NCBI RefSeq assembly: GCF_000013725.1
Contig: NC_007955.1
Coordinates: forward strand, 2,077,579 to 2,141,578
Length of the DNA: 64,000 nucleotides
Direction of reading: 5' to 3'
Source of the DNA: Methanococcoides burtonii DSM 6242
GTDB lineage: Archaea; Halobacteriota; Methanosarcinia; Methanosarcinales; Methanosarcinaceae
Part shown: piece by piece, positions 1,994-44,434 of the stretch
Layout of the letters: the number at the start of each line of letters is the position of its first letter
Position numbering within the stretch: position 1 is the stretch's first letter
Notes under the pieces: model-generated
The model's database searches: none
What the model was told of the DNA's origin: nothing
Seen by the model: the letters and a program-made list of their open reading frames with translations, nothing else
Position numbers and translations under genes: made by a program

Positions 1994-2272
1994 TCATTTC
2001 TGGCTATTGCGTAGCTGTTCGATATCTTCCTTTGCGTCAGAATATCTGAGAATGTATAGGCCACTACATGGTTTTATGAACTGGAATATCAGGTCGTCTC
2101 CTTTTATTCCGATGGGTATGGAGTCTCCTCCACGGAGCATGATCCCATGTAATTTGTAGCCGCCTTTGACGTGGTAGACCTCATCACATTCTTTCTTGAT
2201 GAAGTCTTCGCATTCCTGGGGTGTGGCTCCTTTGAGGAGGATCTCATAGGGAATATCGTTTATACAGGCCAT
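1994..2272 (-). CDS. conserved hypothetical protein, 92 aa, purM operon
   Basis: A small acidic soluble protein that begins MACINDIPYEILLKG. It starts 3 nt after the purM stop, so it is almost certainly co-transcribed with lysC and purM. No recognised motif, metal site or membrane segment. The even charge pattern and tight linkage argue for a real gene, but the function is unknown; a role linked to purine synthesis would be guesswork from position only. Confidence 0.7.
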   Translation of the reverse strand: MACINDIPYEILLKGATPQECEDFIKKECDEVYHVKGGYKLHGIMLRGGDSIPIGIKGDDLIFQFIKPCSGLYILRYSDAKEDIEQLRNSQK

Positions 2273-2275
2273 ATT

Positions 2276-3277
2276 TTACACTATCTCAAGATCGCGTACA
2301 CGAATGCCGCTTTCAACTATCTTTCCGACTATCTTTCCACCTGTCATCTCTGCAGCCTTTTCAGCATCTGCTTCAGGTAAGATGATGAGGAATCCCATTC
2401 CCATATTGAATGTGCGGTACATCTCAAGATCATCCACATTACCTTCTTCCTGTAGGAACTTAAATATGTTTCCTGGCTCGATCGGGTCAGTGAAGTCAAA
2501 ACCAAGGCCTGTAACCCTTTTAAGTTTCAGCAGTCCGCTCCCTGTGATGTGTGCGAGTCCGTGAACATCACATTCCTTTATCACATCAAGGACTTCCATA
2601 TAAATGCGGGTCGGGATAAGAAGTTCGTCTCCTATTGTGGTCTCTGTATTGTAAGAGAAATCTTCATGGTATGAATGTCCTGATTCCTTGATTATATCTC
2701 TCACAAGGGTGTAACCGTTACTGTGAACTCCATTGCTGGGTATTCCCACAAGTACATCTCCAAGCCTAACTTTCTCTCCGGTGATCACTTCTTCTTTCTT
2801 GACCATTCCAAGGCATGTACCTGCAAGATCGAACCCGTTCACGATCTCTGGCAGGGTTGCAGTTTCACCACCTACGATGCTCATTCTTGAGATCTCTGCA
2901 CCTTTGACAAGTCCTTCTCCTATCTGGCTTGCAAAGTCATCAGAGTGTTTCTCAAGAGCAAGATAATCGACAAAACTGATGGGTTCTGCACCGATGGCAA
3001 GAAGGTCGTTGACGTTCATTGCGATACAATCGATGCCTACAGTGTTCCAGCGCTTCATCTCATTTGCTATAAGCACTTTTGAACCGACACCATCGGTTGC
3101 CATTGCAAGTGCATATTCGCCGAAATCGATAAGTCCTGCGTAGTGACCGATGCTTGTAAGAGGGGCACCGATACCTTCGCGTTTGTATGTCATTCCATTT
3201 GTAAGTGCCTTGATGGTCGATTCCTCTTTCTCGATGTCGACACCAGAATCTGCATATGTAAGATGTTTCTCGTTCAT
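2276..3277 (-). CDS. purM: phosphoribosylformylglycinamidine cyclo-ligase (AIR synthetase)
   Basis: Catalyses ATP-dependent closure of FGAM to aminoimidazole ribonucleotide, the fifth step of purine synthesis, in the cytoplasm. At 333 aa it is full length for the PurM family. Family signatures are visible: DGVGSKVLIA (about residues 60-70), the glycine-rich GGETATLPE, and IPSNGVHSNGYTLVR, with the C-terminal HITGSGLLKLKR. Starts 13 nt after the lysC stop with a GAGGG Shine-Dalgarno, and is followed at 3 nt by a 92-aa gene, giving a three-gene operon. The pairing with aspartate kinase is positional, not metabolic. Confidence 0.95.
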   Translation of the reverse strand: MNEKHLTYADSGVDIEKEESTIKALTNGMTYKREGIGAPLTSIGHYAGLIDFGEYALAMATDGVGSKVLIANEMKRWNTVGIDCIAMNVNDLLAIGAEPISFVDYLALEKHSDDFASQIGEGLVKGAEISRMSIVGGETATLPEIVNGFDLAGTCLGMVKKEEVITGEKVRLGDVLVGIPSNGVHSNGYTLVRDIIKESGHSYHEDFSYNTETTIGDELLIPTRIYMEVLDVIKECDVHGLAHITGSGLLKLKRVTGLGFDFTDPIEPGNIFKFLQEEGNVDDLEMYRTFNMGMGFLIILPEADAEKAAEMTGGKIVGKIVESGIRVRDLEIV

Positions 3278-3290
3278 TTAATTCCCTCTT

Positions 3291-4700
3291 TTAGTTGCAT
3301 CCGTTCTTTTTTCCGAGACCGAACTCACGATGCAGGACTTTCACTGCTTCTTCTGCATCTTCTTCCTTTACTACGAATGAAATGTTATGCTGGGACGAAC
3401 CCTGGCTTATCATTATTACATTGATCTTTTCTTTCCCGAGAGCACCAAATATCTTCCCTGCAACACCCGGGCTGCCATCCATTCCAGCACCCACCACAGC
3501 GACCACACAAACATCTTCATCGTATGCGACCTCTCCGACAACACCTTCATTGAATGCATGCTCCAGGGATTTGATGGCCCTTTTAAGATGGGATTGTTCT
3601 ATGACCAGTGACATGTTCGCTTCAGATGAGCTCTGGCTGATCATTATGATATTAACTCCAGCGTTCGCAAGAGTGGTAAATATTTTTGCAGCAGTTCCGA
3701 TGGCACCTACCATACCTGCACCGCAAATGTTGATGGCTGCCACATTTCTTATTAATGTCACTGCTTTTGCTACCTCTTCACTGCAATTCTGGTCTGCAAC
3801 GATGAGGGTTCCGGGGAACTGTGTGTCAAACGTGTTCTTCACACGTACAGGTATTCCATGGATGATGGCAGGTTCTATGGCTCTTGGATGCAACACCTTA
3901 GCACCGAAATATGATAGTTCCATTGCTTCGATGTATGATATCTGTGATATCGTAGATGCTTCTGGTACTATTTTCGGGTCAGTGGTCATGATACCGTGAA
4001 CCTCTTTCCACAACCATATCTCATCTGCCTGGATCGCAGCACCGATCAGGGATGCAGTGAAATCGGAACCTCCGCGTCCGAGAGTGGTTATAATGCCATT
4101 CTTGTCTTCTGCAATGAATCCTGTGACTACCGGAATTGAATTTTCCACAAGAGGTCCAACAACTTCTTTTATCTGCGCATAGCTTTTTTTCAGAGGTCTG
4201 GCGTTTCCGTAGTTCTCTGTAGTGTTGATACCTGCCTCTCCACCCGTAAATGGTTTAGAATCGATTCCCATGGAACGTATCGAACCACTGATTATGGGGA
4301 CTGCAAGTCGTTCTCCATAAGATGAGATATAATCTATGGAACGCGGGGTAAGCTCTCCAAGATAGCAGATACCTATAAGGGCCTTTTCAAGTTCATCGAT
4401 GCGGATGTCGATGGTCTCAATGACCTCATCGGCGATCCTTTCATTATCGATTGCATCACTTATCGCATCATAGTGCTTTTTTGCAAGCTCTGCCATGAAC
4501 TCTTTTACCTGCGAGACCTTGCCTTTTTGTGATGCTTCCGCTGCGTTTGTAAGAATCCCATCAGTAACACCACCAAGGGCTGAAGTAATAGCTACAACCT
4601 GATCGCCTCCTTCTTTATAGCCTATCAGTAGTTGTGCAACATGGCGTATCTTCTTTCCATCTGCAATGGATGTTCCGCCGAATTTCATTACATATCTCAT
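3291..4700 (-). CDS. lysC: aspartate kinase
   Basis: Phosphorylates aspartate, the committed step toward lysine, threonine and methionine. The N-terminal kinase domain opens with MKFGGTSIADG and carries GRGGSDFTASLIGAA around residues 210-225. Two C-terminal ACT domains follow (about 320-390 with AAINICGAGM, and 400-465 with VAVVGAGMDG), each containing a NIIMISQ/NVIMISQ strand, as in monofunctional feedback-regulated aspartate kinases. 469 aa is the normal size. It is the first gene of the lysC-purM-92 aa operon. A TATA-like box lies about 60 bases upstream. Confidence 0.95.
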   Translation of the reverse strand: MRYVMKFGGTSIADGKKIRHVAQLLIGYKEGGDQVVAITSALGGVTDGILTNAAEASQKGKVSQVKEFMAELAKKHYDAISDAIDNERIADEVIETIDIRIDELEKALIGICYLGELTPRSIDYISSYGERLAVPIISGSIRSMGIDSKPFTGGEAGINTTENYGNARPLKKSYAQIKEVVGPLVENSIPVVTGFIAEDKNGIITTLGRGGSDFTASLIGAAIQADEIWLWKEVHGIMTTDPKIVPEASTISQISYIEAMELSYFGAKVLHPRAIEPAIIHGIPVRVKNTFDTQFPGTLIVADQNCSEEVAKAVTLIRNVAAINICGAGMVGAIGTAAKIFTTLANAGVNIIMISQSSSEANMSLVIEQSHLKRAIKSLEHAFNEGVVGEVAYDEDVCVVAVVGAGMDGSPGVAGKIFGALGKEKINVIMISQGSSQHNISFVVKEEDAEEAVKVLHREFGLGKKNGCN

Positions 4701-4815: not shown

Positions 4816-6033
4816 TCAGCTAAATTCCCTTTTTAAGAAGAACACAGTAAGTGCAATTAGTATTGCAACAACGATGTAGCTAAAACCACTTGATCCTTTG
4901 ACATCATCGACAGAATCTGAAACGACGTCTGATACAGCATCAGTTAGATTATCACTACCTGGTATCATTTCATCTATCTTACTCATGTTCTCTACGTCTA
5001 AGCTCGTCTCTTTTATTGTCTCGGTTATAGAGTTGCTTTTCTCTACGGTGAATGAGCTATCCTCTGAAGATACAGAGCCATCTTCAGACACAATGGTTAT
5101 GGTGACCTCATGTTTTCCTGCATCCATTTCTTCTGTGACCGCTGGGTATTTTCCCTCATCCACTTCTTTGCGAGTATCTATCAGCTCATCATCCACATAT
5201 ACTTTTATTTCGGATGCATCATTATCAAGTTCATAGTAGATTATGGCGCGCTCGTTTTCCCTGACTACATTTCCTGCAAGACCTTCTACTGTTATTTCCA
5301 CATTATTTTCGATTATCACATCCTCTCTTTGTGTAACCTCTTTCAGGAAAACGGTAGTTTCAGTGCTATCAAAAAAATCATATATTGTTGCAATCACAAT
5401 TGTTGTTATCTCTCCGTTAACGGCCTTGTAATGGCTGAATATCTCACCTTTTTCCATATCGTTTATCTCTTTGACGAGGTGACCGTTCTTTTCCAGTGTT
5501 ATGGTTATGGTCTCTTCTTCATCGTCATAGTTGGATGCTTTTAGTGAAAATCCTTCTTCCAGATTAAGTTCGTCTCCTATATCTATCGACCTTGAATCAT
5601 CATATATCAAAAGATCATTGAGTTTCTCTTCAGGATTGCGGAATTGCTCTATCCTTATTTTTGCAGAGGCAGGATCCTTGGAAACTACATCTTTTGGCGT
5701 GACCCGGAACACAAGATAATCCTTGTCTTCGTCATCATCATCCTCTGCTTCAACGGTTAATATGTATTCGAAAGGGTCATCTTCTTGTCCGGTCCCATCT
5801 CCATCTTTGACAACCTTTCCATCACGCAATACCTCTACCCAGACATCTCCATCGTTCTCGTTGATATCTACGATATGCAGGGTATATCCCTGATCAAGTG
5901 TAAGCTTGGTACCAATATTTATCACACTTTCAGAGTAGTGTATTATCGGTTCGGTCGGGTCAAGTGCTGTTACAGGGGTAATTGCAAACAGCATAACAAA
6001 AATTCCTATGAGTACAAAACGTATATATTTCAT
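4816..6033 (-). CDS. S-layer-type surface protein with C-terminal membrane anchor
   Basis: 405 aa, exported and anchored. Residues 1-23 form a signal peptide (ending ITPVTALD). Two copies of an S-layer duplication-type domain follow, about residues 36-120 (IGTKLTLDQGYTLHIVDI) and 148-235 (IGDELNLEEGFSLKASNY). Next comes an Ig-like region (about 255-335, YELDNDASEIKVYVDDELID) and a C-terminal membrane segment (FSYIVVAILIALTVFFL) with a short basic tail. The strongly acidic stretch EDDDDEDKD suits a salt-exposed surface. A GGTGA Shine-Dalgarno precedes the start. Related to, but smaller than, the main Methanosarcinales S-layer protein; the precise role is not known. Confidence 0.8.
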   Translation of the reverse strand: MKYIRFVLIGIFVMLFAITPVTALDPTEPIIHYSESVINIGTKLTLDQGYTLHIVDINENDGDVWVEVLRDGKVVKDGDGTGQEDDPFEYILTVEAEDDDDEDKDYLVFRVTPKDVVSKDPASAKIRIEQFRNPEEKLNDLLIYDDSRSIDIGDELNLEEGFSLKASNYDDEEETITITLEKNGHLVKEINDMEKGEIFSHYKAVNGEITTIVIATIYDFFDSTETTVFLKEVTQREDVIIENNVEITVEGLAGNVVRENERAIIYYELDNDASEIKVYVDDELIDTRKEVDEGKYPAVTEEMDAGKHEVTITIVSEDGSVSSEDSSFTVEKSNSITETIKETSLDVENMSKIDEMIPGSDNLTDAVSDVVSDSVDDVKGSSGFSYIVVAILIALTVFFLKREFS

Positions 6034-39613: not shown

Positions 39614-40050
39614 TCATTTCCTGAAGGTGGACTTCAGGAGCAGGGCATCGTCCTTCAGGTTCGGAATTTCACAGATGACAAGCCCTTTCACGTCGAACTT
39701 CCGAAATGCTTCCATCAGGTTGGTGTGATCAAGGTCGGACTCCTGAATGATCAGGTGGTTCTTTTCCCCTCTATCCCCATAGGCTATGCCGGATATGTGG
39801 CAGTGCATGTTCTCCAGTCCCTTCCCTGCCAAGAGCACTTTCAACGCTCTCAAGGAAACTACGGAATTCCTCTATAGTATTATACTCTCCGCAGCTGCGT
39901 GCGTGCAGATGTGAGAAGTCTATGCAGGGCATTACCCCCTCGATGGCTGTCGCCATCATCAGGGTCTCTTCCAGACTGCCGAACTGTGTCGCTTTGCCGG
40001 TGGTCTCCGGGCGCAGCACTAATCGATGCCCTCGTCTGCAAGTTCTTCGT
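39614..40050 (-). pseudogene. decayed duplicate of the 3' half of the TIM-barrel gene at 41986
   Basis: Matches the last half of the intact gene (VLRPETTGKATQFGSLEETL onward) at roughly 85-90 percent by eye. It lacks the first half. A one-base insertion (GAAGGGACT against GAAGGACT) near 39828 shifts the frame, and a one-base deletion near 40021 shifts it again. The final section still reads HISGIAYGDRGEKNHLI and ends close to the normal stop. Confidence 0.85.
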
Positions 40051-40068: not shown

Positions 40069-40818
40069 TCAATGGATCAAGGATATCATCCGGTAGATAC
40101 TGGTTCTGGCATCATCTTGTGACATCCTGCCATACTTCTCTATCCCTTCATCCGAATTATATGCTGAAGTGATACATTTTTCGAGAAATGGGTATTTTTC
40201 CATTAGTCTACCTAGTACGGAGATCTCTATCTGCTCCCCGCCATGATCGGGATCGATCAATGCAAGAACGTCTGCATAATCTTTTATTAGCTTTCCTGTC
40301 TCCCATTCAATATCATCACTTGTCCCATGAGCAATTCGATAATTGCGGTCCCATACGGCTTTCAATTTCAAAACAAGCAATGTTGCCCGGTTTGGTACTG
40401 CCATTTCGATCCCTCCCCGAATTTGCCTTGTTTCTGTGTTCCCGTTAAGAATGCTGAAATCTAAAGACATGTCCTTCCCTTCAAAAGGAAAGGGCTTTTG
40501 CCTGGTTGCAAAATCAATGATGACCGGACCTGCTTCAGTTTCCTTTTTTACACTCGTTGGTATCCCTGGTAGCTTATATGGTGTAAAATCACGATCATTT
40601 CGCAGGTGATGCATTAAGCTCTTTCGTGTACTTGCGTTCGTTATTAGGTCTATGTCGATGGATCCGTACCAGGAGTTGTATGAATCGACTGCCCAGCCAC
40701 CAATGAGCACAGTGGTTGGATCCTCTCTTTCATCCTTTTCATGAAGGTAACGACCAATTACCTCCAATTCATCTATGGAATATCTGATAATATTACCCAT
40801 ATTTTCATATTGAGTCAT
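40069..40818 (-). CDS. AbiEii-like nucleotidyltransferase toxin
   Basis: About 249 aa. The nucleotidyltransferase core is clear: GG at residues 40-41 and SIDID at 53-57 (GGWAVDSYNSWYGSIDIDLI), with a C-terminal helical part (LLVLKLKAVWDRNYRI). Such proteins paired with an AbiEi regulator form type IV toxin-antitoxin/abortive infection systems, where the enzyme modifies RNA, for example tRNA ends. The start at 40818 overlaps the antitoxin-like gene by 14 bases; the ATG at 40800 is the alternative. The longer frame from 40878 is rejected because it lies inside the partner. Confidence 0.78.
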   Translation of the reverse strand: MTQYENMGNIIRYSIDELEVIGRYLHEKDEREDPTTVLIGGWAVDSYNSWYGSIDIDLITNASTRKSLMHHLRNDRDFTPYKLPGIPTSVKKETEAGPVIIDFATRQKPFPFEGKDMSLDFSILNGNTETRQIRGGIEMAVPNRATLLVLKLKAVWDRNYRIAHGTSDDIEWETGKLIKDYADVLALIDPDHGGEQIEISVLGRLMEKYPFLEKCITSAYNSDEGIEKYGRMSQDDARTSIYRMISLIH

Positions 40819-41836
40819 ATGTAGAAACCATTTCTTTTGTAATGTCCATTGTAGAATATCCCATTCCGGCCAGGTCAAGAAGTGTCTGCGAGGGTGATAC
40901 GACCCTGATCCCCTCTTTTTTGCGGCTATCCTGAAATACGTCCCTGTCAGGCCTATAAACCACTGCTTTTATGGTATTTCCTGAATGGGACTCAAATAAT
41001 TCCCGGAAATGGTCAAGATGTTCATCTTTCAGATATAAATAAACTGCATCATGTCTTACACCATAACCTGTGTAAAGTGACGCTGCAGTGTATGTTGTGA
41101 ATCCCACAGGCATGTTATCCTGCATTGCAAAGGCTTCTGTAATCTCTCTTGCTGCATGCATGGACCCGCTGAACGGTATACGGATCTCATCGATCTTAAG
41201 ATTTGCAAGCGGGCGTTCCCATGCAACGCCATTGAGCAGTTTGTCCACGTTTGAAATGCTCACGTGGTTGTAATCACGTTTCACAATATTCTGCCGCAGC
41301 AATGCCTGGACCGTTTTGTGTGCCCATCCATATGATACATTTTCGATAAGTGACAATTGGCGTATCGAGGTCTTTTTTTCTTTCAACAGACGGGATACAA
41401 TTTTCCATGATCTGTCCGATGTGATCCGGTGGGTTTTGGATACGAACTGTTCATTGCTGCCGGGTTTGAATGTCCAGGGAAGTTTTAGCATAATGATACC
41501 CAATTGGTCCATTATCCGTTTTTCCCTTTCAGGAAATGATTTTGCAGCAACGACCAGTTGTATGCTCTTCCTCTTTTCCATCTCTTCATTCTGCAGCCAG
41601 AGATCCCGAAGCAGGTTCATCCTTGCGATCGTATCGATGGTAGCTTTTGATTTGATCTCTATAAGGTATATGGTGTCATTATCTTCCAGTAAAGCATCCG
41701 GGCGGAGGGGTAGATCACTCACGTAATACTCATATGATGTGCTGAGGCTGATATTCAGGTTATCAGAAGGGATGCCCAGGCTATCTTTGATGTAATTCAG
41801 GATCTCTTTGTACTCAATTGATTCTTTTTTTATCAT
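40805..41836 (-). CDS. AbiEi-like antitoxin/regulator with N-terminal nuclease-like domain
   Basis: 343 aa. Residues about 35-125 resemble a PD-(D/E)xK nuclease core: PD at 46-47, then E-I-K at 60-62 (YLIEIKSKAT). A winged helix follows (about 140-200, KKTSIRQLSLIENVSYGWAH), then an AbiEi-type C-terminal region (VGFTTYTAASLYTG to VVSPSQTLLDLAGMGYS). It lies upstream of and overlaps the nucleotidyltransferase gene, as antitoxin genes do in AbiE systems. Most AbiEi proteins lack the N-terminal part. Whether it cuts DNA is unknown; it may be a dead fold used for binding. Confidence 0.7.
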   Translation of the reverse strand: MIKKESIEYKEILNYIKDSLGIPSDNLNISLSTSYEYYVSDLPLRPDALLEDNDTIYLIEIKSKATIDTIARMNLLRDLWLQNEEMEKRKSIQLVVAAKSFPEREKRIMDQLGIIMLKLPWTFKPGSNEQFVSKTHRITSDRSWKIVSRLLKEKKTSIRQLSLIENVSYGWAHKTVQALLRQNIVKRDYNHVSISNVDKLLNGVAWERPLANLKIDEIRIPFSGSMHAAREITEAFAMQDNMPVGFTTYTAASLYTGYGVRHDAVYLYLKDEHLDHFRELFESHSGNTIKAVVYRPDRDVFQDSRKKEGIRVVSPSQTLLDLAGMGYSTMDITKEMVSTYDSI

Positions 41837-41985
41837 GTACAGTTATCACTATATTATGATAACTACTTAAACTTATCAGTGATACCTATCGTTACTTTGT
41901 GATATGCACATAATGTTATCACTGATATCCAGCACTGTCAGGAAGGCTCGGAAATAAGCCCGGCTAGCCTCTTCCTTTTCCAAAT

Positions 41986-42813
41986 TCACTGTCTGAAAGT
42001 ATCCTGCAGCAGCATTGCATCGTCCTCGAGGTTCGGACTTTCACAGATGACAAGCCCTTTTACGTCGAACTCCCTGAACACTGCCATAAGGTCGGTATAA
42101 TTAAGGTCGGACTCCTGAAGGATCAGGTGGTTCTTTTCCCCTTTATTCCCATAGGCTATTCCGGATATGTGGCAGTGCATGTTTTCCAGTCCTTCCCTGC
42201 CAAGAGCACTTTCAACGCTCTCAAGGACACTACGGAATTCTTCTATAGTATTATACTCTCCGCAGCTACGTGCGTGCAGATGTGAGAAGTCTATGCAGGG
42301 CATAACCCCCTCGATGGCTGTCGCCATCATCAGGGTCTCCTCCAGACTGCCGAACTGGGTCGCTTTGCCGGTGGTCTCCGGTCGCAGCACTACATCGATG
42401 CCCTCGTCACTCAGTCCTGAGGTAAGACCTTCGAGCAGCCCGGTGACCTTTTCCATTACTTTTTTGCTGCTGTGGCCCTGATAATAGGCAGGATGGAATA
42501 CGATGGATGATGCTCCGCAGAGGGCACCGATCCGGGCGGACTCATATATACGCTGTACACTGGCCGTGATCTTCTCTTCTTCAGCGGAATTGAGGTTGAT
42601 GTAATAAGGTGCATGCACACTGAGGGCCACGTTCTCTTCTTCTGCTGTCTGCCTGACGTTTGCAGCGGTCTCTTCTTTCATGCGAACCCCTCGCACGAAC
42701 TCCAGTTCCATGCAGCCAAGCCCAAGCTGGGCTATACGCCTGATGCCATCGATTGAGCCTTTTTTCTTTGAGCTTAATGGAGCTCCTGCTGTTCCGAAGA
42801 GCAGTTGCTTCAT
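41986..42813 (-). CDS. endonuclease IV/xylose isomerase-like TIM-barrel protein
   Basis: About 275 aa from the ATG at 42813 (KQLLFGTAGAPLSSKKKG); the frame extends to 42882 without a better start. Metal-site segments typical of AP endonuclease 2 family barrels are present: SVHAPYYINL, IVFHPAYYQG, LRPETTGK, CIDFSHLHARSCG and MHCHISGIAYG. This suggests a deoxyribonuclease IV-like DNA repair enzyme, though sugar isomerase-like relatives cannot be excluded. A decayed copy of its 3' half lies at 39614-40050, beyond the AbiE-like pair. Confidence 0.78.
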   Translation of the reverse strand: MKQLLFGTAGAPLSSKKKGSIDGIRRIAQLGLGCMELEFVRGVRMKEETAANVRQTAEEENVALSVHAPYYINLNSAEEEKITASVQRIYESARIGALCGASSIVFHPAYYQGHSSKKVMEKVTGLLEGLTSGLSDEGIDVVLRPETTGKATQFGSLEETLMMATAIEGVMPCIDFSHLHARSCGEYNTIEEFRSVLESVESALGREGLENMHCHISGIAYGNKGEKNHLILQESDLNYTDLMAVFREFDVKGLVICESPNLEDDAMLLQDTFRQ

Positions 42814-42943
42814 CACACAGTCCGCAGGAGTTCTCTTGCGTAAGCTGGGGGAGGAATGCGTCATTTTGTCAGTTCTTGTCATGTTCTTATACCTCGTTTA
42901 CTTCTGTTTTGCCGTTATGTATATTGCCTATACAGTGTAATAT

Positions 42944-44062
42944 ATGAATGTGGATAGAACTATCAAACTGAAACTGGAGATGTCTGACGAAGGCAAAGAA
43001 AATCTCAAGCAAACAGTTGTGCTTTTCAACCAGGTTTTCAACGAGGTTGCTGAATATGGTTTCAACAACCATACTCATAGCAAGGTATCTATCCATCATG
43101 CTACTTACAAAGACATTAGAGAACAGCACCCTGAACTGCCGTCTTCGTTGGTCCAGGGTGCAAGAGACGTTGCGTGCGAAGCTCTCAAAGGTGTCAAACT
43201 TAAGACATGTCCAGAGAGTCAGCCGTACTCGGCGATCAGGTACAATAAGAGAGTTGTTACGATTCACATGCAGTACAACAGTGCTACGATTGCATCCATC
43301 CACGGCCGAGTAAATATCTCTTTCAATATACCTGAATACTACAAACAGTATCTTGGATGGGAAATTAGGAGTTCCACGCTTAGGTATGACCGCAGACAAG
43401 ATGTTTTCTATCTGCATGTCACACTTCGTACTGAATCTCCTAAACCGGTCGGCAATACTATTCTTGGTATCGATCGAGGGATTGTCAATGTCGCGGTTTG
43501 TTCCAATAATGTTTTTTTCAATACGAGTAGCATCAAAAATACAAGAGCTAAATATGCATATCTCAGGAAGGAACTCCAGTCCAAAGGCACCAAATCTGCT
43601 AAACGTCTTCTTAAGAAGATCAGCAGAAAGGAAAGACGGTTTGTGACTGATGTTAACCATTGTATTGCCAAAGATATTGTCAATATGCCCTTTGATGTGA
43701 TCGCTCTTGAAGACTTGACCAGCATTCGCGTTCAGAAACGCAAAGGTAAGAACTTTAACAGAAAACTCAACAATTGGAGTTTCTACCAACTTGAACAATT
43801 TATACGCTACAAAGCCGAAGCTGTGGCTAAACAAGTTGTTTCGGTTGACCCCAGATATTCCAGTCAAAAATGTTCCAAATGTGGACACATTTACAAAGGG
43901 AATCGGGATGGGAGTTCTTACCGTTGTCGCAATTGTGGATTTCAAATACATGCTGATCTCAATGCTGCTCGAAACATAGCTCAGGCAGGTATATCTTGCC
44001 TGAGTAGGCTGACTGTCAACCAGCCAAATGTAGGGTTGAAAGTTCCACTAGATGCAACTTAA
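42944..44062 (+). CDS. tnpB: TnpB, IS200/IS605-type RNA-guided endonuclease, no TnpA neighbour
   Basis: 372 aa, apparently intact. RuvC-like catalytic residues: D177 (GIDRG), E255 (ALEDL) and D337 (HADLNAARN). Zinc finger Cys pairs at 309/312 and 327/330 (CSKCG, CRNCG). No Y1 transposase lies on either side, so this is a solo tnpB element. Known TnpB proteins use an RNA from the element's right end to cut DNA, favouring element retention. The right end runs into the neighbouring gene at 44087. Confidence 0.92.
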   Translation: MNVDRTIKLKLEMSDEGKENLKQTVVLFNQVFNEVAEYGFNNHTHSKVSIHHATYKDIREQHPELPSSLVQGARDVACEALKGVKLKTCPESQPYSAIRYNKRVVTIHMQYNSATIASIHGRVNISFNIPEYYKQYLGWEIRSSTLRYDRRQDVFYLHVTLRTESPKPVGNTILGIDRGIVNVAVCSNNVFFNTSSIKNTRAKYAYLRKELQSKGTKSAKRLLKKISRKERRFVTDVNHCIAKDIVNMPFDVIALEDLTSIRVQKRKGKNFNRKLNNWSFYQLEQFIRYKAEAVAKQVVSVDPRYSSQKCSKCGHIYKGNRDGSSYRCRNCGFQIHADLNAARNIAQAGISCLSRLTVNQPNVGLKVPLDAT

Positions 44063-44103
44063 TGATTCACTTACAAGCCTCTTCCGTCAGGCTGGGGTAG
44101 TTG
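43980..44103 (+). ncRNA. probable omega RNA (reRNA) scaffold at right end of the tnpB element
   Basis: Spans the tnpB 3' end and the hairpin AAGCCTCttccgtcaGGCT ending GGGGTAGTTGG near 44103. Right ends of archaeal IS605-type elements carry this type of GGGGTAGTTG sequence. The bases that follow (GCGCCATCCCCAGG) would be the guide. The 5' limit is approximate. Confidence 0.5.
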
Positions 44104-44434
44104 GCGCCATCCCCAGGTGAAGACGCAGTTCCTTTGCTTTCTCCTCGGATACTTTCTCTGCTACAAGCTCGAAGAAAGTGTCAACATCTTCATCCTCAAG
44201 GGATCGTATGTCCTCTTCTCCTTTCAGAGCAAGCTCTACAAGGTAGTCCAGCTCTTCCCCGGTAAGTCTTTCAAGTCTTTCCCTGAAATCATCAGAGTCC
44301 TCTACGAACTTGTGAGATATAGGTCTCAGAATGAACGGATACGGGTGCCCCATGGGCGACATGTGCGTACCGCCGTTCTCAGGTGCAAGCTTGTTGAAGA
44401 TCTCTTTATCCCTGTCTGAAAATTCTCGTCCCAT
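44087..44434 (-). CDS. conserved hypothetical protein, 115 aa, 3' end rewritten by the tnpB element
   Basis: Soluble, helix-rich and strongly charged (FRERLERLTGEELDYLVELA, FFELVAEKVSEEKAKEL). No recognised domain. Its last codons (PTTPA and stop) lie in the right end of the tnpB element, so the original C-terminus has been replaced by a few residues. Probably still functional, since helices up to LRLHLGMA are intact. Confidence 0.65.
   Translation of the reverse strand: MGREFSDRDKEIFNKLAPENGGTHMSPMGHPYPFILRPISHKFVEDSDDFRERLERLTGEELDYLVELALKGEEDIRSLEDEDVDTFFELVAEKVSEEKAKELRLHLGMAPTTPA

Follow-up and report, generated by a model that had tools for sequence, protein, structure and literature searches.

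A predicted AbiE-type toxin-antitoxin module of Methanococcoides burtonii with a PD-(D/E)xK-like front domain in the antitoxin

Genes and features of the locus

The window was a stretch of 64,000 nucleotides of Methanococcoides burtonii DSM 6242 (NC_007955.1, positions 2,077,579 to 2,141,578), and all window coordinates refer to positions within it. An antitoxin gene came first and adjoined a toxin gene, both on the minus strand (40069-41836), with the following features:

40805..41836, minus strand: antitoxin gene, 343 aa, with a PD-(D/E)xK-like domain, a winged helix and an AbiEi C-terminal domain (open reading frame; more than 50 homologous loci; AlphaFold; Foldseek)
41462..41836, minus strand: antitoxin residues 1-125, PD-(D/E)xK-like domain with D47, E60 and K62 (NucS_C, PDDEXK_10 and NCBIfam NucS matches; EndoMS/NucS folds)
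41252..41431, minus strand: antitoxin residues 136-195, winged helix-turn-helix with a near-invariant SIRQL...VSYGWAH (alignment; profile matches; wHTH structures)
40808..41251, minus strand: antitoxin residues 196-343, AbiEi-type C-terminal (antitoxicity) domain (Foldseek 5kqj and 4fo1; alignment to bacterial PF09952 antitoxins)
40069..40818, minus strand: toxin gene, 249 aa, AbiEii/MenT-type nucleotidyltransferase (PF08843; invariant motifs; AlphaFold; Foldseek MenT1)
within 40069..40818, minus strand: toxin key residues G40, G41, S53, D55, D57, K151, R158, K176 and D180 (motif alignment)
40805..40818, minus strand: 14-nt overlap between antitoxin end and toxin start (conserved in homologous loci)

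The original prediction of an AbiE-like pair held for the presence of both open reading frames on the minus strand, but its toxin start, TTG 40878, was replaced by ATG 40818 (giving the 14-nt overlap) because homologues begin at the equivalent ATG. Adjacency and overlap of the two genes were kept in homologous loci across the phylum. The antitoxin was 94% identical to that of M. seepicolus, the closest named relative.

Toxin

The toxin matched PF08843 (AbiEii) with 24.5 bits, above the Pfam cut-off of 22.5. The motifs GG, DxD, KLKAxWDR and KDxAD were invariant or nearly so among 36 intact toxin homologues; no variation was seen at GG in motif I, at DxD with the Ser two residues ahead of it (the key residues of GGWAV and GSxDxDL), at K and R in motif III, or at K/D in motif IV. 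Motif III (KLKAxWDR) agreed with KLxAaxxR, the COG4849 version of this motif in Dy et al. (PMC3985639). The AlphaFold model of the toxin (pLDDT 91.5) had MenT1 (Rv0078A) of Mycobacterium tuberculosis as its best Foldseek match among solved structures (8an5, 8an4; E 1.5e-5), although identity to MenT1 was 15-17% and the MenT1 antitoxin, MenA1, was unrelated. The predicted GG...SxDxD nucleotidyltransferase site was thus upheld by the invariant residues, the PF08843 match and the MenT1 fold.

MenT1 transfers CMP to the acceptor ends of tRNAs (PMC10435456), and phosphorylation of a Ser/Thr near the active site silences MenT toxins (PMC11375011). The MenT fold and a Ser just before the DxD (S53, invariant) were both present in the window toxin; MenT1 likewise has a Ser/Thr phosphoacceptor beside its active site. 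Fold and motifs indicate that the toxin most likely adds nucleotides to tRNA 3' ends, blocking growth.

Antitoxin winged helix and C-terminal domain

The AlphaFold model of the antitoxin had three domains (pLDDT 88.8, pTM 0.63); given this pTM, the relative placing of the domains was unsure. Residues 136-195, the winged helix, were almost invariant in the alignment of homologues, and the region matched HVO_A0114, HTH_58, TrmB and MarR profiles and wHTH structures in Foldseek. Foldseek matches of the model also included 5kqj and 4fo1, which are the DALI matches next after Rv2827c for the AbiEi of Streptococcus agalactiae (PMC7319586); because these two are common to both proteins, residues 196-343 were read as the AbiEi antitoxicity domain. 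The winged helix and AbiEi-type end foreseen for the regulator were therefore borne out by alignment, model, Foldseek and alignment to PF09952 antitoxins. Single-sequence and profile searches of PDB with antitoxin or toxin gave no match, and PADLOC, PHROGs and NCBIfam gave nothing specific with the window antitoxin alone.

The structure 4fo1 was a match of both the antitoxin and the toxin models, with nucleotidyltransferase-like folds in both (40069-41251). From this shared fold, the C-terminal end of the antitoxin may be a dead relative of the toxin.

Front domain of the antitoxin

The front domain carried the motif D47-x12-E60-x-K62, and in the AlphaFold model these residues lay on or near the adjacent strands 48-52 and 55-64, in a PD-(D/E)xK-type core. 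EndoMS/NucS structures (5gkj, 2vld, 5gke) were among the top Foldseek matches of the antitoxin with E of 0.007-0.03, which was supportive but not conclusive, and since the output came without residue ranges they were assigned to residues 1-125 by reading. NucS_C (PF01939) matched 19 of 53 antitoxin homologues, NCBIfam NucS 22 of 53 and PDDEXK_10 7 of 53; SfsA and AHJR REase models also matched some homologues. Together, profiles and model suggest a PD-(D/E)xK fold closest to NucS/EndoMS. The nuclease-type fold proposed for the first 120 or so residues was thereby supported, by NucS_C in the homologues and EndoMS/NucS among the structural matches, and structure prediction returned the expected core.

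NucS/EndoMS, to which the front domain was closest in both structure and profile searches, is an enzyme of DNA repair; the antitoxin shares no more than its core fold, joined here to a winged helix, and the active site has often been lost. Conservation was lower in the front domain than in the rest of the antitoxin (mean entropy 2.23 vs. 1.43 bits). D47 was the third most conserved position of the front domain.

Operator and putative promoter

The region upstream of the antitoxin gene contained the following elements:

41844..41861, minus strand: operator palindrome TATCA-N8-TGATA, about -25 from the antitoxin start (conservation)
41864..41871, minus strand: TATA-box-like TTTAAGTA between two operator palindromes, TTTAWATA in homologues (putative promoter element)
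41874..41884, minus strand: operator palindrome TATCACTGATA, at -48 (conservation)
41887..41904, minus strand: degenerate TATCAN8TGATA site of the upstream 43-bp operator repeat (conservation)
41917..41927, minus strand: operator palindrome TATCAGTGATA, at -91, on a 43-bp period (conservation)

The palindrome TATCASTGATA had 2 matches in the window against 0.06 expected. TATCA[C/G]TGATA stood at about -48 in nearly all full-length archaeal antitoxin genes, usually repeated 43 bp upstream, and each copy was followed by the TATA-like TTTAWATA and then the TATCA-N8-TGATA palindrome. The composite 41-bp pattern (at most 2 mismatches) was found in 33 of 394 genomes, with 0 for the reversed control, and nearly all copies sat at the antitoxin gene. 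The operator was kept while the antitoxin protein fell to about 33% identity, in line with the near-invariant winged helix.

This conservation argues for binding of the antitoxin's winged helix to the two 43-bp operator repeats, and with a palindrome on each side of the TATA box autorepression is therefore the predicted outcome. Five other TATCASTGATA sites were found in the window's own genome; the four that were read had none of the remaining operator parts (three lay inside genes), so no regulon was found. An operator nearly unchanged across methanogen families offers a ready reporter, including for relatives without a toxin.

Complete operators (TATCAGTGATA, TATA box and TATCA-N8-TGATA) were also observed in two viral contigs, L142 at 5507-5534 (IMGVR_UViG_3300002172_000005) and L141 at 1142-1169 (3300005325_000006). 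Each copy preceded a viral gene without an assigned family, and the sequence that was read there contained no antitoxin gene. Such copies would be scars, or else sites at which a virus exploits the repressor of its host. At another archaeal locus (L177, genome G012, 2036-3907), a second operator copy preceded a MarR/TrmB-like regulator paired with a DUF6036 nucleotidyltransferase. This other pair follows a MazEF-like pair and immediately precedes the AbiE-like module, giving a small toxin-antitoxin cluster, possibly with shared control.

Distribution and decay of the toxin

Among 394 genomes of the phylum, 44 had a match to the antitoxin profile at E≤1e-3, and in 36 the match reached E<1e-40. 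The best match in each of these 36 genomes was a full-length protein with the front domain, and the three-domain layout is therefore not due to chance. Presence of the module was patchy even inside the genus Methanococcoides. A scan of the genome collection gave 59 loci, all archaeal (methanogens, ANME and Thermoplasmata). Protein searches with the window proteins found no relatives on plasmids or viral contigs. PADLOC matches were scattered among 116 neighbours (MADS, AriA, SoFic, methyltransferases, viperin), and linkage of the module to defence islands is not claimed from this raw tally, which had no control set.

The toxin was broken or absent in 15 of 53 loci with a whole antitoxin, although some of the broken toxins come from draft or metagenome assemblies, where the break may be an error of sequencing. 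At two loci upstream of an ilvD-like gene, deletion scars joined the operator directly to the C-terminal end of the toxin (G093:C43:85210, L179; G113:C56:30386, L178). A divergent three-domain subfamily (L030, L180-L182; about 30% identity) had no recognised toxin alongside and is possibly a domesticated regulator. Both the persistence of antitoxins without an intact toxin and this subfamily would fit an ordinary transcription regulator that stands beside an unrelated nucleotidyltransferase and has no toxin-antitoxin function. That reading is very unlikely: adjacency and overlap of the genes were conserved across the phylum, the bacterial relatives described below are annotated as AbiEi/AbiEii pairs, and loss of the toxin with retention of the antitoxin is the asymmetry that a toxin-antitoxin pair would be expected to leave.

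Bacterial relatives of the three-domain layout

One archaeal relative (L185) was a two-domain PF09952 (AbiEi_2) antitoxin with 39 bits, so the front domain is not universal in the AbiEi_2 branch. With L185 as query, 62 plasmids were found, of which 8 loci were read. The antitoxins of these were 358-390 aa long, 7 of 8 being annotated as "type IV toxin-antitoxin system AbiEi family antitoxin", and each was followed by a nucleotidyltransferase gene, with an overlap of 4 or 13 nt in 7 of 8. The PF09952 match was confined to their C-terminal part; it was preceded by a winged helix and some 140 further residues, which carried D..ExK in 7 of 8, and one of the antitoxins had weak NucS_C and Mrr_cat matches.

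Comparison of the archaeal family with bacterial AbiEi_2 antitoxins by hhalign gave E 7.4e-16 and probability 98.6, with an alignment that ran from just before D47 to the C-terminus, across all three domains. Compared alone, the front domains had the motif in register but with hhalign probability 9% and E 0.004; this comparison being weak, it is the full-length alignment and the common motif that tie the archaeal and bacterial front domains together. Matches of the archaeal toxin profile to the bacterial partner toxins were marginal. The curated PF09952 model found no direct match at E≤1e-3, neither in the window genome nor across 148 genomes of the phylum, and kinship of the window antitoxin with the AbiEi_2 branch accordingly rests on profile-profile comparison. 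From the PF09952 relatives and motif III of the toxin, we infer that the module belongs to the COG4861/COG4849 branch.

The pairs of Agrobacterium pAt1D1609b and Sphingobium pBSY17_2 resembled the window module in the three domains, the D..ExK and the downstream nucleotidyltransferase. The bacterial AbiEi_2 pairs differed from it in sequence, at about 20% identity, in their diverged toxins and in being plasmid-borne, the window module being chromosomal; the TATCASTGATA operator was shown for the archaeal family only. In the COG5340 branch, S. agalactiae AbiEi/AbiEii and M. tuberculosis Rv2827c/MenT4 share with the window module the winged helix and C-terminal antitoxicity domain, the nucleotidyltransferase toxin and an inverted-repeat operator (PMC3985639, PMC7319586), but both antitoxins are without the PD-(D/E)xK-like domain.

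By these sequence comparisons, the three-domain layout is a normal form of the AbiEi_2 branch, to which the window module belongs as an archaeal relative. The survey for this layout found it to recur in more than 50 archaeal loci and in bacterial plasmid antitoxins. The fusion had originally been taken as an undescribed layout on an antitoxin type that has only the later parts; the latter agrees with the two-domain AbiEi of the literature, but not with the AbiEi_2 group. Novelty as a single case likewise did not hold, the fusion being fixed in an archaeal family and shared with bacteria, but in the open literature no description of such a nuclease-like domain in AbiEi_2 antitoxins was found (most subscription papers were outside that scope). 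Annotation of this branch's antitoxins goes no further than AbiEi, although a nuclease-fold domain seems to be part of them.

Fate of the nuclease site

The D..ExK triad was intact in 39 of 53 archaeal members and altered in 14. On the maximum-likelihood tree its state required 11 changes, at least 9 of them by well-supported branches (9-11), and altered members were almost all single tips. Eight members with an altered triad adjoined an intact, full-length toxin. Alteration occurred in 8 of 36 intact-toxin loci vs. 5 of 15 broken-toxin loci, and no link between triad loss and toxin decay was evident in these loci. The divergent subfamily had GxK in place of ExK.

Nuclease activity thus appears dispensable for restraining the toxin, because the triad changed 9-11 times and the eight altered members kept an intact toxin; and since the triad was lost repeatedly without loss of the module, the main role of the front domain is most likely non-catalytic. 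The near-invariant D47 and the frequency of intact D-ExK speak against this, exceeding the need of a purely structural role. The suggestion that the fusion adds DNA cutting was accordingly weakened, obligatory cutting being unlikely given the repeated changes, the eight loci with intact toxin and the GxK subfamily. Catalysis in members with intact D-ExK is possible but not favoured, and the front domain may bind or sense DNA.

An active nuclease or nickase, in a protein that would sense DNA damage or invaders and add DNA cutting to an abortive-infection module as an effector fused to the antitoxin, would agree with the intact triad in most archaeal members and in 7 of 8 bacterial relatives, with the rank of D47 in the front domain and with NucS/EndoMS, an active mismatch nuclease, as closest fold. 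It is unlikely, as the triad was often altered beside an intact toxin, the GxK subfamily exists, the front domain was much less conserved than the rest, and nuclease activity on a repressor bound at its own promoter would have to be tightly regulated.

A former nuclease that now serves only in dimerisation or in cooperativity between operator sites, which is a narrower form of the preferred reading, would fit the repeated triad loss and the paired operator sites on a 43-bp period. It is a plausible though doubtful version, because two-domain AbiEi bind paired repeats without such a domain (PMC7319586), and D47, and in most members ExK too, were conserved.

Proposed mode of action

The module is probably an archaeal AbiE-type (type IV) toxin-antitoxin module of the AbiEi_2 branch, with a mainly non-catalytic front domain in an antitoxin that acts as autorepressor and neutralises a tRNA-directed toxin; toxicity, neutralisation and binding are predictions. 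The toxin, a MenT/AbiEii-like nucleotidyltransferase by fold and motifs, would block growth by nucleotide addition to tRNA 3' ends, and the C-terminal domain of the antitoxin would neutralise it, possibly, by analogy with MenT1/MenT3, through inducing phosphorylation of S53. The winged helix would occupy the two 43-bp repeats of the palindromic operator that encloses the TATA box, so that the pair represses itself. The front domain would be an old, fixed part of the branch and could serve in DNA contact, in oligomerisation on the paired operator sites, or in sensing of altered DNA.

As a bolder and quite unlikely proposal, the front domain would be a working NucS-like nuclease or a mismatch or damage sensor, and recognition of abnormal or invading DNA would free the tRNA-modifying toxin; the antitoxin would then act as sensor and effector at once, in archaea as well as in bacterial AbiEi_2 modules. 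If the front domain does sense DNA, it could be the trigger of modules of the AbiEi_2 branch.

Insertion footprint

The module sat after the 3' end of an AP_endonuc_2 (endonuclease IV-like) gene and before a second copy of the last 400 bp or so of that gene:

39620..40036, minus strand: displaced 3' end of the AP_endonuc_2 gene, 91% identical to the 3' end at about 41993-42408 (sequence comparison; marks the insertion)

Ten loci of genus relatives had the AP_endonuc_2 gene without the module. The flank on the 5' side of the gene matched in all ten, and the flank on the 3' side in the four closest. Two further loci (L033 and L132) showed the same displaced 3' copy as the window. This footprint is what integration by recombination within the AP_endonuc_2 gene would leave.

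At the 5' part of the AP_endonuc_2 gene lay an inserted IS605-family element (42814-44105) with TnpB at 42944-44062. The apparent first 23 or so codons of the window AP_endonuc_2 gene were absent in relatives.
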